From: an uncultured Clostridium sp.
GTDB lineage: Bacteria; Bacillota_I; Bacilli_A; Acholeplasmatales; Anaeroplasmataceae
Direction: 5' to 3'
Assembly (NCBI GenBank): GCA_946540005.1
Contig: CAMNHY010000001.1
Coordinates: 1 to 64,000 of the forward strand
Length of the DNA: 64,000 nt
In this document: one piece after another, positions 29,035-51,586 of the stretch
Layout of the letters: every line of letters begins with the position of its first letter
Position numbering within the stretch: position 1 is the first letter of the stretch
Notes under the pieces: generated by a model
What the model was told of the DNA's origin: nothing
What the model saw: the letters and a program-made list of their open reading frames with translations, nothing else
Databases searched by the model: none
Program-made: the position numbers and the translations under genes

Positions 29035-29080
29035 TTAAAAATCTTGACATTAAATTTTAAATAAATTAAGATATATATAA

Positions 29081-29292
29081 ATCAATGAGAAGACCAAATC
29101 TAGATTTTAGTTAAGAGAATTGATGGGTGGTGCGAATCAATCAATAGTCTAGAGGAGAACAGCTTTGAGAGATGGAAGAAATTAAGTAGAACCATCCGTA
29201 TATCCGCGTTAAGGATTTAAGGGCAGTATTTATATACTGAACTAAGGTGGCACCGCGTTTTAGACGTCCTTAGATTAGGGCGTCTTTTTTTA
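29081..29292 (+). promoter_or_regulatory. T-box riboswitch (asparagine) of asnS
   Basis: A classic T-box leader: promoter TTGACA (29044-29049) with TAAGAT 17 bp on, a stem I region, specifier AAC (29158-29160, Asn codon) in GAGGAGAACAGC, the conserved AAGGTGGCACCGCG (29244-29257), and a terminator AGACGTCC/GGGCGTCT with T7 (29262-29292). Uncharged tRNA-Asn should pair with the specifier and the TGGCA bulge and allow read-through into asnS. Confidence 0.95.
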
Positions 29293-41478: not shown

Positions 41479-42435
41479 ATGGTTAAAAATTTAATTAAAA
41501 AAATAAAAAAATATAATACTATAATTATACATAGACATAATAGACCAGATGGAGACGCACTAGGTAGCCAAATTGGTTTAAAATTATCAATTCAAAAAAC
41601 ATTTCCAAAGAAAAAAGTATATGCAGTAGGAGATATTAATCCTAGATTAGCTTGGATTGGAGATATGGATGAAATTAGTGATGATTTATATAAAGATGCA
41701 TTAGTCATTATATGTGATACAGCTTGTTCATATATGATTAGTGATGAAAGATATAAATTAGCTAAAGAATTATATGTTATTGATCATCACACAAATAAAT
41801 GTGATGTTGAAGATGAGAATGTCATCATTGATTCAACAAGAGCTGCTGTTTGTGAATTAATAGCGGAAATTTTATTAACAAATAAATTTGTAGTAGATGA
41901 AGAAGTAGCTAAGGCTTTATTTACAGGACTTGTAACAGATTCAGGAAGATTCCAATATAGTGAAACTAGTCCTAAGACATTAAGAATAGCTGCAGATTTA
42001 CTTGAAAAAGGATTTGATTCACAATCTATTTATAATAAGTTATATGTAGAAACTCTTGAAAAGAGAAAGCTTACAGCTAAGTTTACTGATAAATTTGAAC
42101 TTACAGAACAAAATGTTGCATATTTGATGAACACAAAAGAAGATTTAGAAAAATATGGTTTATCATTTAATGATTGTTCACGTGGAATGGTAAGTGTAAT
42201 GGCCGGACTTGAAGGAATAAATATCTGGGCCAATTTCACTTATGATGAAACTAAAGATAAGGTCATTGGTGAATTTAGATCAAGAGGATTATCAATTGTT
42301 GATATAGCTAAAAAATGGGGTGGCGGAGGTCATGACCAAGCTTGTGGTGCAACTCTCGATAATTTTGATGTTGCAAGAGAAGTATTAAAGGATTTTGATA
42401 AGAGAATGGAGGAATTTAAGAATGCCAATAACTAA
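41479..42435 (+). CDS. DHH/DHHA1 phosphoesterase, NrnA-like (first of two)
   Basis: A 318-residue NrnA/GdpP-C-type enzyme; relatives degrade nanoRNA (2-5-mers), pAp or pApA. Motifs: HRHNRPDGDALGSQ, IICDTA, VIDHHTN (the DHH triad), and DHHA1 GGGGHDQACGATL. All metal ligands are present. It has its own promoter (TATAAT about 41446). The stop overlaps the second paralogue by 14 bases. Confidence 0.9.
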   Translation: MVKNLIKKIKKYNTIIIHRHNRPDGDALGSQIGLKLSIQKTFPKKKVYAVGDINPRLAWIGDMDEISDDLYKDALVIICDTACSYMISDERYKLAKELYVIDHHTNKCDVEDENVIIDSTRAAVCELIAEILLTNKFVVDEEVAKALFTGLVTDSGRFQYSETSPKTLRIAADLLEKGFDSQSIYNKLYVETLEKRKLTAKFTDKFELTEQNVAYLMNTKEDLEKYGLSFNDCSRGMVSVMAGLEGINIWANFTYDETKDKVIGEFRSRGLSIVDIAKKWGGGGHDQACGATLDNFDVAREVLKDFDKRMEEFKNANN

Positions 42436-43390
42436 TACAACATTCAAACAAATTTTAAAATATATAAAGAAATATCAAAGAATCATTATTCATGGTCATA
42501 TTAGACCAGATGGTGATTGTGTAGGTAGCCAATTTGGTCTACAACAACTTATATTAGACAATTTCCCAAATAAGGAAGTTTATGTTGATGGTGACATTTG
42601 TGATTATTGTAGTTTCTTAGGAGAACCTGTAAGAGTTCCTGATGAATATTATAAAGGTGCATTATCAATTGTTGTTGACTGTGGTAATTGTGAACGTATA
42701 AGTGATCAAAGATATAAAAATGGAGATTTCTTAATTAAGATTGACCACCATATTCCTGATGATCAATATGGAGATTTATATTATGTAGAGGAAGAAGCTG
42801 CAAGCTGTACTCAAATCATTGTTGATTTTGCACGTAAGAATAAATTAAGACTTACAAAAAATGCTGCATATCCTTTATATGTAGGTCTTGTAACAGATTC
42901 AGGAAGATTTAGATATGATAGTGTTTTACCTCATACATTTGAAAATGCAGCAATCTTATTATCTACAGGTGTAGATATTGCAGATGTAGATAATAAATTA
43001 TCTGTAACTACATTAGAGACTCTTAAATTAAATGGATATACATTAAATAATATGCAATTTACTGACAATGGATTTATCTATATTAAGATTACGCAAGATG
43101 TTGTAAAGGAATATGGAGTTACCAATGAAGAAGCTAGTAACCAAGTTAGTAATTTAGCTGGAATTGAAGGATATCCTGTATGGGGTCTATTTATGGAATA
43201 TCCTGATGAGATTCGTATTAGACTTCGTTCACGTGGACCTGAAGTTAAAACATTAGCTAATAAATATGGCGGTGGAGGTCATGAAAAGGCTGCAGGTGCT
43301 AGACTTGAAAGTTGGGAACAACTTCCAGAGTTTTTAAAAGATGTTGATGAACTTGTTAAAAATTATAAAGAAAATTCTTTAAATAAATAG
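42422..43390 (+). CDS. DHH/DHHA1 phosphoesterase, NrnA-like (second of two)
   Basis: A 322-residue paralogue of the preceding gene, colinear along its length: HGHIRPDGDCVGSQ, VVDCGNCERI, IDHHIPDD, and GGGGHEKAAGARL. The ATG at 42422 with GGAGG before it is chosen; the in-frame TTG at 42395 has no site. The two copies are clearly diverged (visibly less than half identical), so the duplication is old and they may have different substrates, for instance nanoRNA versus pAp or linear di-AMP. Confidence 0.9.
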   Translation: MPITNTTFKQILKYIKKYQRIIIHGHIRPDGDCVGSQFGLQQLILDNFPNKEVYVDGDICDYCSFLGEPVRVPDEYYKGALSIVVDCGNCERISDQRYKNGDFLIKIDHHIPDDQYGDLYYVEEEAASCTQIIVDFARKNKLRLTKNAAYPLYVGLVTDSGRFRYDSVLPHTFENAAILLSTGVDIADVDNKLSVTTLETLKLNGYTLNNMQFTDNGFIYIKITQDVVKEYGVTNEEASNQVSNLAGIEGYPVWGLFMEYPDEIRIRLRSRGPEVKTLANKYGGGGHEKAAGARLESWEQLPEFLKDVDELVKNYKENSLNK

Positions 43391-45170: not shown

Positions 45171-45376
45171 ATAAAAAATGATGATAAAGAAGAGTACTTA
45201 AAATCTTTTATTTAAAGCGAGAACTGATGGTGAAAGAGTTCAATAAATCTTTAAGGAAAGACACTTTGGAGTGATTCTAACACAATCCGTATCAGGCGTT
45301 AACGACAATGAGCTATTTATTAGAAAATAAGGTGGCACCACGTTAAGACGTCCTTTGTATGCGGGCGTTTTTTTAT
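45171..45376 (+). promoter_or_regulatory. T-box riboswitch of the HisRS-like/aspS operon
   Basis: Promoter TTTACA (45136-45141), 17 bp, TAAAAT (45159-45164). The leader has T-box sequence AAGGTGGCACCACG (45329-45342) and a terminator GACGTCC/GGGCGTT with T7 (45347-45376). Aligned with the asnS leader, the specifier falls on GAC (45260-45262, Asp), fitting aspS; the next overlapping triplet is CAC (45262-45264, His). The terminator ends 16 bases before the first gene. Confidence 0.93.
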
Positions 45377-45391
45377 TTTTTAGGAGGTATT

Positions 45392-46255
45392 ATGGAAAAA
45401 GCTAATATTAATAAATTGTATACTGATACAATGTATTATTTAAAGCTTGAATCATATTTAAGAAGAATATGCGAACTTTATAATTATAAAGAAGTTATGA
45501 ATGATTTCTTAAATAATATCGATTTAAAGGATGAAAGCTTTAGAATGTTCTATTTTGAAAAAGATAGTAATACTTTTACCATTAAATCAAATAATATTAA
45601 TCAAATATTAATATCAGATATGATTTCTCTTATAGCTACAATCCTTAAAGGATTAAGCTTTAAAGATTATTTAATTAATATATTTGAAGACACTAAAAAT
45701 AATCATCATTTTAGAAATGTAAGTGATGTGTTAAACAATTTAGGCATTAACTACATAATAGAAAATAATTGCCAAGATAAAGTATTAGAAATAATACTAA
45801 ATAATTCAATAAAAGTAGGTTATGGTTTTATTGAATCAAATGATAATTCATTTGAAATTAAACTTGATATGAATCAATTAATAGATTTATTATTTGATGT
45901 ATCTAAATTTAAACCAAAGGCAAAAAGAATGCATATTTATTTTGTATCTAATTCAAATCGTACAAAATTAGAGAATTTAAGAATTATGAATTTATGTAGA
46001 TATGGCGGACTTATTTGTGACATGGATTATCAAAATAGCGATTATTTAAGCCAATTAGAATTGGCAATACAATCAAATGCTATGTTTACTTGTATCTTAG
46101 GAGACAACGAACTTAACAATATGGTTATTAGCATAAAAAATAATGATACAGATGAAGAAGAATTGATACCACTTAATGATGTATACTTATATGTACTTAA
46201 GTATTTACAAAAGAATGTATCAAAGTGCTCATCATGTCACGCCAAGGAGGATTAA
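45392..46255 (+). CDS. Degenerate histidyl-tRNA-synthetase-like protein
   Basis: A 287-residue protein in the place where Bacillota carry hisS before aspS. The C-terminal about 100 residues (from 190) follow the HisRS anticodon-binding domain: LRIMNLCRYGGLICDMDY, QLELAIQSNAMFTCILGDNEL, VISIKNNDTDEEELIPLNDV. The N-terminus (YLRRICELYNYKEV) recalls the first HisRS helix. Motif 2 and motif 3 and the histidine motifs (RGLDYYT type, GGGRYD) are absent, and it is about 130 residues shorter than HisRS (about 420), so it should not charge tRNA. The ATG at 45392 follows AGGAGG; the frame is intact. Function unknown. Confidence 0.7.
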   Translation: MEKANINKLYTDTMYYLKLESYLRRICELYNYKEVMNDFLNNIDLKDESFRMFYFEKDSNTFTIKSNNINQILISDMISLIATILKGLSFKDYLINIFEDTKNNHHFRNVSDVLNNLGINYIIENNCQDKVLEIILNNSIKVGYGFIESNDNSFEIKLDMNQLIDLLFDVSKFKPKAKRMHIYFVSNSNRTKLENLRIMNLCRYGGLICDMDYQNSDYLSQLELAIQSNAMFTCILGDNELNNMVISIKNNDTDEEELIPLNDVYLYVLKYLQKNVSKCSSCHAKED

Positions 46256-46256
46256 T

Positions 46257-47558
46257 ATGAGACGTGTTTTATTAAAGAACATTAAGCTAGGTGAAGTTAA
46301 TCACGTAGCAGGTTTTGTTGAAAACATCCGTAATAAGAAGTCTATGTGCTTTATCGTTTTACGTGATATTTCAGGAAAACTTCAATTAACAATTGAAAAA
46401 GCAAAGCATCCAGAAATGGAAGAAACATTAGCACAAATTACAGCTGATTCTGTAATTGAAGCTGAAGGTTTAATTCAAGCAAGCGAATATGTTAAATTAA
46501 ATGGTATGGAAATGTATCCAGATACTATTAAGATTGATTCAATTGCTGCACCAAACCCAATTGTTGCGCCTAAGGGTGAAGAAACAAATATCGATATGAG
46601 ACTTGATTATCGTTGGGTTGATTTAAGAACTGAGAAGAACCAATTAATGTTTGAGGTTCAATCATGCTTCGTAAATGCAATGAGAGAATTCTTAAATCAA
46701 AATGAATTTACTGAAATTCATACACCTAAATTAATTGGTGCTGAATCAGAATCAGGTGCTGGTGTATTCAAAGTAGATTATTTCGATAGAGATGCATTCT
46801 TAGCACAATCACCTCAATTCTATAAGCAAATGGCTATGTCTGCTGGTCTTGAAAGAATTTATGAAACAGGTCCTGTATTCCGTGCTGAGAAGTTTGCATC
46901 ACGTAAGCACTCAACTGAATTTACTTCATTTGACCTTGAATTCTCATATATTGAATCATTTAGAGATGTAATGAAGATGGAAGAGGACTTAGTTACATAC
47001 GCATTAAGCGCTGTAAAAGAAAAATATGGTGAACAAATTAAGAAGGTATTTGATATTGATGTTGTAGTACCTACAAAGCCATTCCCTGTAATTGATCTTC
47101 ATGATTTATATGATGAATTAGAAGCTCGTTATGGTTATAAGGTTCCTGAATCTGAGAAGGGTGATCTTACAACTGAAGGTGAGAGAATGTGTAAGCAATT
47201 TTCAATGGATAAGTATGGCCATGAATTCTTATTTGTTACAGGTTATTCAAAAGAAAATAGAGCCTTCTATCATATGAGAGATGAAAAAGGTGTTCCATGT
47301 GGTTATGACCTAATTTGGAAAGGTTGTGAAATCACAACAGGTGCACAACGTGAGCATAGATATGATATCTTAAAGGCACAAGCTGCTGAAAAGGGTCTTG
47401 GTAAAGATATCGAATTCTATCTAGAATTCTTTAAGTATGGTGTTCCACCACATGGTGGTTTTGCTATCGGTGTAGATAGAATGACTATGTTAATATTCAA
47501 TGTTGGTATTAAGGAAGCTGAATTCATCTTCCGTGGACCAGATAGATTAAATCCATAA
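46257..47558 (+). CDS. aspS: Aspartyl-tRNA synthetase, archaeal-type (AspS2)
   Basis: A class II synthetase of 433 residues, the size of the archaeal/eukaryotic type, not the about 590 of ordinary bacterial AspRS; the bacterial GAD insertion is missing. N-terminal OB domain (about 1-105), motif 2 FRAEKFASRKHSTEFTSFDLE and motif 3 GGFAIGVDRMTMLIF. The ATG at 46257 is chosen (GGAGG seven bases before, straddling the end of the previous gene); longer readings enter that gene. Archaeal-type AspRS can be non-discriminating, yet asnS is present at 29310. Controlled by the T-box upstream. Confidence 0.93.
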   Translation: MRRVLLKNIKLGEVNHVAGFVENIRNKKSMCFIVLRDISGKLQLTIEKAKHPEMEETLAQITADSVIEAEGLIQASEYVKLNGMEMYPDTIKIDSIAAPNPIVAPKGEETNIDMRLDYRWVDLRTEKNQLMFEVQSCFVNAMREFLNQNEFTEIHTPKLIGAESESGAGVFKVDYFDRDAFLAQSPQFYKQMAMSAGLERIYETGPVFRAEKFASRKHSTEFTSFDLEFSYIESFRDVMKMEEDLVTYALSAVKEKYGEQIKKVFDIDVVVPTKPFPVIDLHDLYDELEARYGYKVPESEKGDLTTEGERMCKQFSMDKYGHEFLFVTGYSKENRAFYHMRDEKGVPCGYDLIWKGCEITTGAQREHRYDILKAQAAEKGLGKDIEFYLEFFKYGVPPHGGFAIGVDRMTMLIFNVGIKEAEFIFRGPDRLNP

Positions 47559-49784: not shown

Positions 49785-50648
49785 ATGATGACTATGGATT
49801 ATAATGTAGGAAAAGATTTAGCATTAATTCGTGACTTTTATAATTTATCACAAGATGATATAGCTATAGAATTAAAAGTTGAAAAATTAAGAATTACAAG
49901 GACTGAAACAGGTGAGTCTTATCCAAGAAAAGAATTCATAGAAAGAGTTTATGATTATTGTTTTAATAAAGGACTTAGATTAAATATTCAAAAAGAAATG
50001 TTTTATAAGGACGATGTTAAGAATGGACATATATTATTGACTCATGCTTCTAAAAAAGGAATTGTTGGAAATATAGATGTAAAACTGGGTAGAACAAACA
50101 GTGATTTTGGGCAAGGGTTTTATTGTGGTGAATCATATGATAAATCCATATCGTTTGTTTGTAGAAGTGATGATGCATCTATTTATTTTATTGATTTTAA
50201 TCCTGATGGTTTGAAACGTATAGAGTTTAATGTTGAAGAAAATTGGATGTTAGCAATAGCATATTATAGAGGAAGATTAGAAGAATATAAAAACAATAAA
50301 AAAATATTAGACATAATTAAATCCATTGAGGATTCTGATTATGTTGTTGCACCTATTGCTGATAATCGTATGTTTGAAATAATTGACCAATTTATTGAAG
50401 GATATATCACAGATGAACAATGTAAACATTGCTTGGCAGCTACAAATCTTGGACTTCAGTATGTATTTTTGACTGAAAAAGCAGTAAGTAATCTTAAAGT
50501 TCTTGAAAAATGTTACATATCAAGTAGCGAAAAGAAATATTACATTAAAAAACAAGAAGATTATCAAAAAGAAGGCGTAGATAAATCTAAGCTTGCTAGA
50601 ATCCAATATAAGGGTCAAGGAAAGTACATAGAGGAATTGTTAAAATGA
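49785..50648 (+). CDS. XRE helix-turn-helix fused to DUF3990 (ADP-ribosyltransferase-like) protein
   Basis: A 287-residue fusion. Residues about 8-60 form an XRE-type DNA-binding domain (GKDLALIRDFYNLSQDDIAIELKVEKLRITRTETGE). From about 83 the sequence matches the DUF3990 pattern: ILLTHASKKGIVG, then LGRTNSDFGQGFYCGESYDKSISF, the Asn-x-Asp-Phe-Gly-x-Gly-Phe-Tyr motif of ADP-ribosyltransferase-like toxins. The start is uncertain among ATGs at 49785, 49788 and 49794. The stop overlaps the next gene (ATGA). Expected to be a toxin with built-in operator binding, or a sensor that is inhibited by its partner. Confidence 0.8.
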   Translation: MMTMDYNVGKDLALIRDFYNLSQDDIAIELKVEKLRITRTETGESYPRKEFIERVYDYCFNKGLRLNIQKEMFYKDDVKNGHILLTHASKKGIVGNIDVKLGRTNSDFGQGFYCGESYDKSISFVCRSDDASIYFIDFNPDGLKRIEFNVEENWMLAIAYYRGRLEEYKNNKKILDIIKSIEDSDYVVAPIADNRMFEIIDQFIEGYITDEQCKHCLAATNLGLQYVFLTEKAVSNLKVLEKCYISSSEKKYYIKKQEDYQKEGVDKSKLARIQYKGQGKYIEELLK

Positions 50649-51586
50649 TTAAAATAGATAGAGATGGATTAACATTATGTAAATTACAAGGTGAATTATT
50701 TGAAAATTCTATAAAATATGTAAACCAAAGCTCAAGTATATTTATTCGTAGATTTATGAATTCTAATATTGCTAGAACCTTTGATTCTAAGGACATTTTA
50801 AATGATACTAAACCTTTTGAAATGATTTATGAGATTATAGATGATGAATTTGGGAAAAGTGAATATGGTTCAAAAAAATTTGGAAGCGAATCTTTGTTTT
50901 GGATTGGATATATTTATAGGTATTTTTCATATACATATAACCTAAGTTCTAAACAAGTGTATAAAATGATTAAGCCTGATGAATTAAATGAGCGATATTA
51001 TGTATATCATACATTCGATCCAGCCTTTGCTATTGAAAGAATGCTTGAAGAAAAAAATATTTCATTAGATGAAAAATCTCAAAACAAAAAGTTGTTAAAT
51101 TTAATTAGAAATCAAAAGTATAATGAAGAAGTTAAATTAATTCCAATGACTAGAGAGTTAGCTCACAACCTCTTTGTAGATTTTAAAAATGATGTTTCGA
51201 TGTTTGAAAGCGAGGAGTCTTTTAAAGAATATTTTTATGATAAAAAAAATATTGATTTATATGTTGATACTAAAAAAGAAAAAGGATATGTTTTATTAGC
51301 AATAACTTATAAAGATGAAGTTATTGGAGAAATAAGATTTAAAAATATAAGTAATGAATCTGCTGTATTAGGTATTGTACTAAAAAATGATGAATATAAG
51401 AATAAAGGATTAGGTTCATATTCATTATTAAAAGCAATAGATTATGCAAAAGAAGTGTTAAGATTAAAGAAAATACTTGTATCTATATTACCTAATAATA
51501 CAAGATCGATTCATGTTTTCGAGAAAATAGGATTTAAAGAAATAAAGGAAGATAATAATTTTATTTGGTTTGAGAAAATAATTTAA
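50645..51586 (+). CDS. Antitoxin/adaptor-like domain fused to GNAT acetyltransferase
   Basis: A 313-residue fusion. The N-terminal about 140 residues (SSIFIRRFMNS..., LFWIGYIYRYFSYTYNLSSKQVYKMI, YYVYHTFDPAFAIERML) belong to a family I know as a neighbour of DUF3990 genes and that resembles DUF3791 in its final helices. From about 158 a RimJ/RimL-type GNAT domain follows: VKLIPMTRELAHNLF, VIGEIRFKN, acetyl-CoA loop NDEYKNKGLGSYSLLKAIDYA, NTRSIHVFEKIGFKEI. Translation is coupled to the DUF3990 gene. It could be the antitoxin partner with an enzymatic addition; the acetylation target is unknown. Confidence 0.75.
   Translation: MIKIDRDGLTLCKLQGELFENSIKYVNQSSSIFIRRFMNSNIARTFDSKDILNDTKPFEMIYEIIDDEFGKSEYGSKKFGSESLFWIGYIYRYFSYTYNLSSKQVYKMIKPDELNERYYVYHTFDPAFAIERMLEEKNISLDEKSQNKKLLNLIRNQKYNEEVKLIPMTRELAHNLFVDFKNDVSMFESEESFKEYFYDKKNIDLYVDTKKEKGYVLLAITYKDEVIGEIRFKNISNESAVLGIVLKNDEYKNKGLGSYSLLKAIDYAKEVLRLKKILVSILPNNTRSIHVFEKIGFKEIKEDNNFIWFEKII

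Follow-up and report, generated by a model that had tools for sequence, protein, structure and literature searches.

Catalytically dead paralogs of aminoacyl-tRNA synthetases are a known kind of protein. The accessory subunit of DNA polymerase gamma, gamma B, is a dead relative of the class II synthetases whose anticodon-binding domain (ABD) has been kept for protein binding. When a synthetase is displaced by horizontal transfer, the old gene is normally lost. Here we describe a gene, dHis, in a window of 64,000 nucleotides (the whole stretch of DNA that was analysed), and compare it with these systems. Bacterial histidyl-tRNA synthetase (HisRS; TIGR00442) is the ancestor of dHis and shares with it the ABD, an N-terminal helix and a place next to aspS; unlike HisRS, dHis is without motif 2, motif 3, the histidine loops and the insertion domain. 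Like HisZ (TIGR00443), dHis is a HisRS-derived bacterial protein without aminoacylation, but HisZ retains the class II fold and acts together with HisG, whereas dHis keeps the ABD. DNA polymerase gamma B gives a weak match to the dHis ABD (E 0.04); it belongs to an unrelated lineage and we claim no membership. In the limited open-access literature searched, we found no HisRS that had been stripped to an ABD and a CxxC after displacement.

The features of the operon are given below by position in the window.

45172 to 45358, + strand: T-box leader of the dHis-aspS2 operon (RF00230, 101.2 bits, cut-off 93; antiterminator present)
45260 to 45264, + strand: specifier loop GACAC, with the specifier GAC (Asp) at 45260-45262 and an overlapping CAC (His) at 45262-45264
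45382 to 45387, + strand: Shine-Dalgarno sequence AGGAGG of dHis, read from the sequence
45392 to 46255, + strand: dHis, a HisRS remnant of 287 aa, catalytically dead as judged by alignments, profile matches and three further copies (L047, L048, L049)
45425 to 45496, + strand: N-terminal helix of HisRS motif 1, kept (residues 12-35; identity, alignment, branch omega 0.12)
45497 to 45925, + strand: catalytic-domain remnant, shrunken and fast-evolving (residues 36-178; alignment, branch omega 0.71)
45932 to 46216, + strand: HisRS-type ABD, fold core kept (residues 181-275; profile, branch omega 0.28)
46226 to 46237, + strand: C-terminal CxxC (C279, C282), common to the intact HisRS of the family
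46244 to 46250, + strand: Shine-Dalgarno sequence of aspS2, within the last dHis codons, read from the sequence
46257 to 47558, + strand: aspS2, archaeal/non-discriminating-type aspartate--tRNA ligase of 433 aa (NF003483, 429 bits, cut-off 353)

The original prediction had described an intact, well-translated frame standing where hisS belongs, which has lost the histidine loops as well as class II motifs 2 and 3 but has a recognisable ABD, and each of these points is borne out. The frame at 45392-46255 is uninterrupted, follows a Shine-Dalgarno sequence, has typical codon usage (41st percentile among the open reading frames of the window) and scores best as coding (-0.73 vs -1.11 and -1.01 for the other two frames). 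Aligned to the intact HisRS of relatives, it has no motif 2, HisA loop LVRGLDYY, insertion domain or motif 3 signature; its motif 1 N-terminal helix is 52% identical to the same-genus HisRS over residues 12-42. A profile of the ABD built from all four known dHis proteins aligns to the HisRS of relatives over 129 columns (hhalign probability 99.9%, E 4.9e-34), and the best PDB match of the window protein is the ABD of S. aureus HisRS (1qe0). Among NCBIfam models, dHis matches HisRS families only, and within the ABD only: TIGR00442 covers residues 160-260 with 47.2 bits, far below the full-length family cut-off of 286.75, PRK12420 matches weakly (15 bits), and no HisZ model appears among matches with E up to 5. 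A single-sequence AlphaFold prediction of dHis has a pLDDT of 33 and gives no usable fold. dHis is the native hisS of an ancestral hisS-aspS operon, reduced in frame. What is left of the protein is an N-terminal helix and a shrunken scaffold, followed by the fold of the ABD and a tail with the CxxC. With motifs 2 and 3, the histidine loops and the insertion domain all gone from the alignment, it cannot catalyse, in line with the earlier view that it is not an enzyme.

Among about 160 genomes of the order, we found four dHis genes of 235-287 aa (287 aa in the window, 278 aa at L047, 252 aa at L048 and 235 aa at L049), always directly upstream of aspS2. Wherever the slot beside aspS could be read it holds hisS or dHis, and the recurrence of such a gene at this position in three further genomes is far beyond chance. 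HisRS above the family cut-off is present in 144 of 150 genomes of relatives. A foreign HisRS that is complete and has a short ABD (about 65 aa vs about 95 aa) was found in exactly four genomes of the order in searches of 150 and 160 genomes. Three of the four hold dHis, and all four are without a native HisRS; the aspS2 locus of the fourth is absent from its assembly. No genome in these searches contained the foreign enzyme together with an intact native HisRS. The named records here are metagenome assemblies under the labels Anaeroplasma, Mollicutes or Clostridium. The nearest outside relative found for the foreign HisRS is from the Oscillospiraceae (L079, 47% identical to L050), and the enzymes of this type (L050-L053, L079), which have complete motifs and a short ABD, unlike dHis, are likely functional replacements of the native HisRS. 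Since dHis stands upstream of aspS2 with a foreign HisRS elsewhere in three of the four dHis genomes, the native hisS has been displaced there and its remnant has stayed in the operon. A separate, true HisRS is present in the three relatives that could be checked. In the window's own assembly (926 kb, 76% complete) no true hisS was found, and the remaining weak matches, in longer frames elsewhere, are read as other class II synthetases. The gene may be missing because the assembly is only 76% complete, and we infer that displacement occurred in this genome also. As a separate observation, the Oscillospiraceae genome (L079/G160) encodes its very-short-ABD HisRS at 4992-6242 of L079, the only HisRS above the family cut-off there, along with a second, HisZ-like protein; no separate ABD remnant was matched in it.

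The pattern of selection distinguishes the parts of dHis. In a codon maximum-likelihood model with one set of branch lengths for dHis and the aspS2 beside it, the four terminal dHis branches have omega values, rough since synonymous sites are saturated, of 0.28 (G000, the window), 0.34 (G010), 0.48 (G028) and 0.44 (G038) in the ABD, each below 1 (p<=1.1e-4). For the catalytic remnant, where the alignment is poor and alignment error inflates omega, the corresponding values are 0.71, 0.80, 0.84 and 0.79, none distinguishable from 1, and in all four genes the ABD is slower than the catalytic remnant (p 9e-6 to 0.0044). Native HisRS has an omega of 0.05-0.09. The N-terminal helix, at 0.12 on the window's branch, is short in its alignable part and not clearly faster than the ABD. 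None of the simulated neutral frames of dHis lengths was still open after 1 change per codon, and the fitted branches are 3 to 5.5. Within the limits of these omega values, purifying selection acts on the dHis frame and on the amino acids of its ABD, and the rate of the catalytic remnant is not distinguishable from neutral.

Conservation within the ABD is likewise selective. Of 35 columns conserved in native HisRS (numbered as in the HisRS of G002), 10 are kept in all four dHis proteins, against 2.3 expected (0 of 20000 permutations), and six are lost in all four, against 1.8 expected (p 0.0013). Those kept are N348, R351, G354, L355, F380, I407, Y413, Y415, C428 and C431, which include the residues of an N..R..GL helix, a YxY and the C-terminal CxxC. 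Those lost are G336, K367, K371, D374, Q404 and T406, with Q369 and E388 lost in three. Among residues invariant in HisRS, K367, K371 and Q404 are kept in none of the four, Q369 and E388 in one each and K397 in two; the window protein, as the least eroded copy, retains Q369, E388 and K397. The losses include the basic helix and the GDNE glutamate, which we take, by analogy with ThrRS, to face the anticodon. On this assignment, made from conservation and the ThrRS analogy, the conserved K/Q/K/E of the probable anticodon face are mostly gone from dHis. The CxxC tail is present in 29 of 30 native HisRS and in all four dHis, and constraint on it acts on the protein, since the cysteine codons vary (TGC/TGT). 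It is not essential everywhere, as two native HisRS (G040, G030) are without it. A C-terminal CxxC also occurs in the native HisRS of one related family. We considered the tail as a trait tied to archaeal-type AspS2 and found no support for this, because genomes with a bacterial-type AspS beside hisS have the CxxC. In this family and in neighbouring ones, native HisRS ends in Cys-rich tails whose pattern varies (L124-L130, L157, L158; e.g. CSGCSSSCGDCNCDC) and which look metal-binding.

The reduction of hisS probably happened several times independently, to judge from the trees. On the AspS2 tree the reduced state requires four changes, with the window genome sister to an intact-hisS genome of its own genus (100/100) and G010 sister to an intact-hisS genome of its genus (96/92); the window ABD, moreover, is nearest to the same-genus HisRS (56% identity; support 86/87 on the ABD tree). 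It is from these placements that repeated reduction appears likely. Alternatively, dHis arose once and then moved by transfer. The ABD taken by itself does not reject this (AU p 0.44), and the full-length protein tree groups all dHis (99/99), with extreme branches and unreliable catalytic columns. The middle regions of G000 and G038 match each other better than they match native enzymes; those of G028 and G010 do not clearly do so.

We put the chances at about even that what dHis retains is a non-catalytic role of the C-terminal module of the native HisRS, unmasked once a foreign enzyme charges tRNA-His. Besides catalysis, the native HisRS of the family would have had a second function, residing in the N..R..GL helix, the YxY helix and the CxxC tail of its C-terminal module; when the foreign HisRS took over charging of tRNA-His, the native catalytic domain would have been released. 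The second function, which is probably the binding of a protein or a metal rather than of the anticodon, would then keep the remnant in place, on one transcript with aspS2 and with their translation apparently coupled. We predict that the window's genome has a foreign HisRS in the quarter missing from its assembly. Against this proposal, the retained residues could merely hold a fold. A stronger form, which we regard as possible but doubtful, is that the C-terminal module of HisRS in this family serves a second function that is essential and lies outside translation, so that each foreign takeover would lead to independent stripping to one and the same non-catalytic product, and dHis would define a new kind of protein derived from a synthetase. 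An old hisS seemingly stripped repeatedly to the same part would be evidence, supplied by nature, that a housekeeping enzyme has a hidden second function, with the dHis comparison pointing to the residues that carry it. dHis also offers a protein small enough to test and, with intact HisRS, a set for comparison in Anaeroplasma-like bacteria known from metagenomes.

The main rival is that dHis is an idle protein, its frame open only because ribosomes that finish it go on to translate aspS2, so that stops and frameshifts are purged and in-frame deletions pile up. Such coupling fits the spacing of the operons, in which 1-5 nt separate the dHis stop from the aspS2 start in all four (1 nt in the window), the location of the aspS2 Shine-Dalgarno sequence inside dHis in the window, the in-frame shrinkage to four different lengths and the catalytic-remnant omega not distinguishable from 1. 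It does not, however, predict amino-acid constraint on the ABD or retention of the same residues in four lineages, and the cysteine codons vary between TGC and TGT, which places constraint at the level of the protein. We therefore consider it rather unlikely, though a serious contender.

We think it improbable that dHis acts as an accessory subunit of the foreign HisRS, supplying in trans an ABD for an enzyme whose own is short. The reduced length of the foreign ABD, the strict co-occurrence of the two genes in the three checkable genomes and retention of the motif 1 helix in dHis would all suit such a subunit. Set against them, dHis has lost most of the residues that probably contact the anticodon, and within genus g3 the two kinds of genome alike have tRNA-His with the canonical G-1:C73. 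The Oscillospiraceae genome, whose short-ABD enzyme is its only HisRS above the cut-off, weakens the proposal further.

The idea of a tRNA-His sensor or regulator, in which the dHis ABD binds uncharged tRNA-His or an anticodon-like RNA and regulates expression, came with the original prediction, which described a protein kept under T-box control. Control by a T-box is upheld by an RF00230 score above the gathering cut-off; its value as evidence of a histidine role is not. Read against the asnS T-box of the window, whose specifier AAC is followed by A, the pentamer GACAC is best read as GAC, Asp. It was found in 32 T-box leaders that we read in the order, including those of all four dHis operons, whether hisS is intact or reduced; it is ancestral and unchanged. 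Since the specifier reads Asp and is explained by the downstream aspS2, the T-box says nothing about a histidine role of dHis. For a sensor there remain the retained ABD fold, the His codon that overlaps within GACAC, the binding of yeast HisRS to its own mRNA via its ABD (PMC6542539) and the description of the S. aureus hisS-aspS T-box as a histidine T-box (PMC7927825). A protein sensor is not needed, since the T-box senses tRNA directly and is unchanged, and most of the HisRS-invariant residues on the probable anticodon side are lost (K367, K371, D374 and Q404 in all four dHis, Q369 and E388 in three), which makes this role quite improbable.

A HisZ-like role as regulatory subunit of HisG, suggested by HisZ as the classic bacterial HisRS paralog without aminoacylation (PMC9437257) and raised in the original prediction, is refuted for G010 (99% complete) and G028 (97% complete), where, as in the window's incomplete genome, hisG is absent, is unlikely in G038, where hisG is accompanied by an adjoining HisZ distinct from dHis, and is hardly credible overall given that dHis is without most of the catalytic fold that HisZ keeps.

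Several further observations concern the operon and its surroundings. Between the T-box and aspS2, the four dHis genes occur with or without a GNAT gene. In many relatives the T-box is separated from hisS or dHis by a GNAT acetyltransferase gene, which is absent from the window operon; the GNAT genes of the dHis-bearing relatives are as follows.

L047, 1949 to 2500: GNAT acetyltransferase gene
L048, 3412 to 3960: GNAT acetyltransferase gene
L049, 3860 to 4426: GNAT acetyltransferase gene

In the window's family, except in G008, the bacterial-type AspRS beside hisS has been swapped in place for the archaeal/non-discriminating AspS2; other families of the order retain a bacterial-type AspS next to hisS. 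The window also contains an AsnRS-like gene, and the T-box leader used to calibrate that of dHis, at 29076-29274 with specifier AAC (Asn), lies upstream of an asparagine-tRNA-ligase-like gene. Two consecutive DHH-type phosphoesterase-like genes occupy 41479-43390, with a 41-base overlap if the second starts at the listed TTG. At 49785-51586, a protein resembling a helix-turn-helix plus a DUF3990-like domain is followed by a GNAT-like protein, possibly a toxin-antitoxin-like pair.
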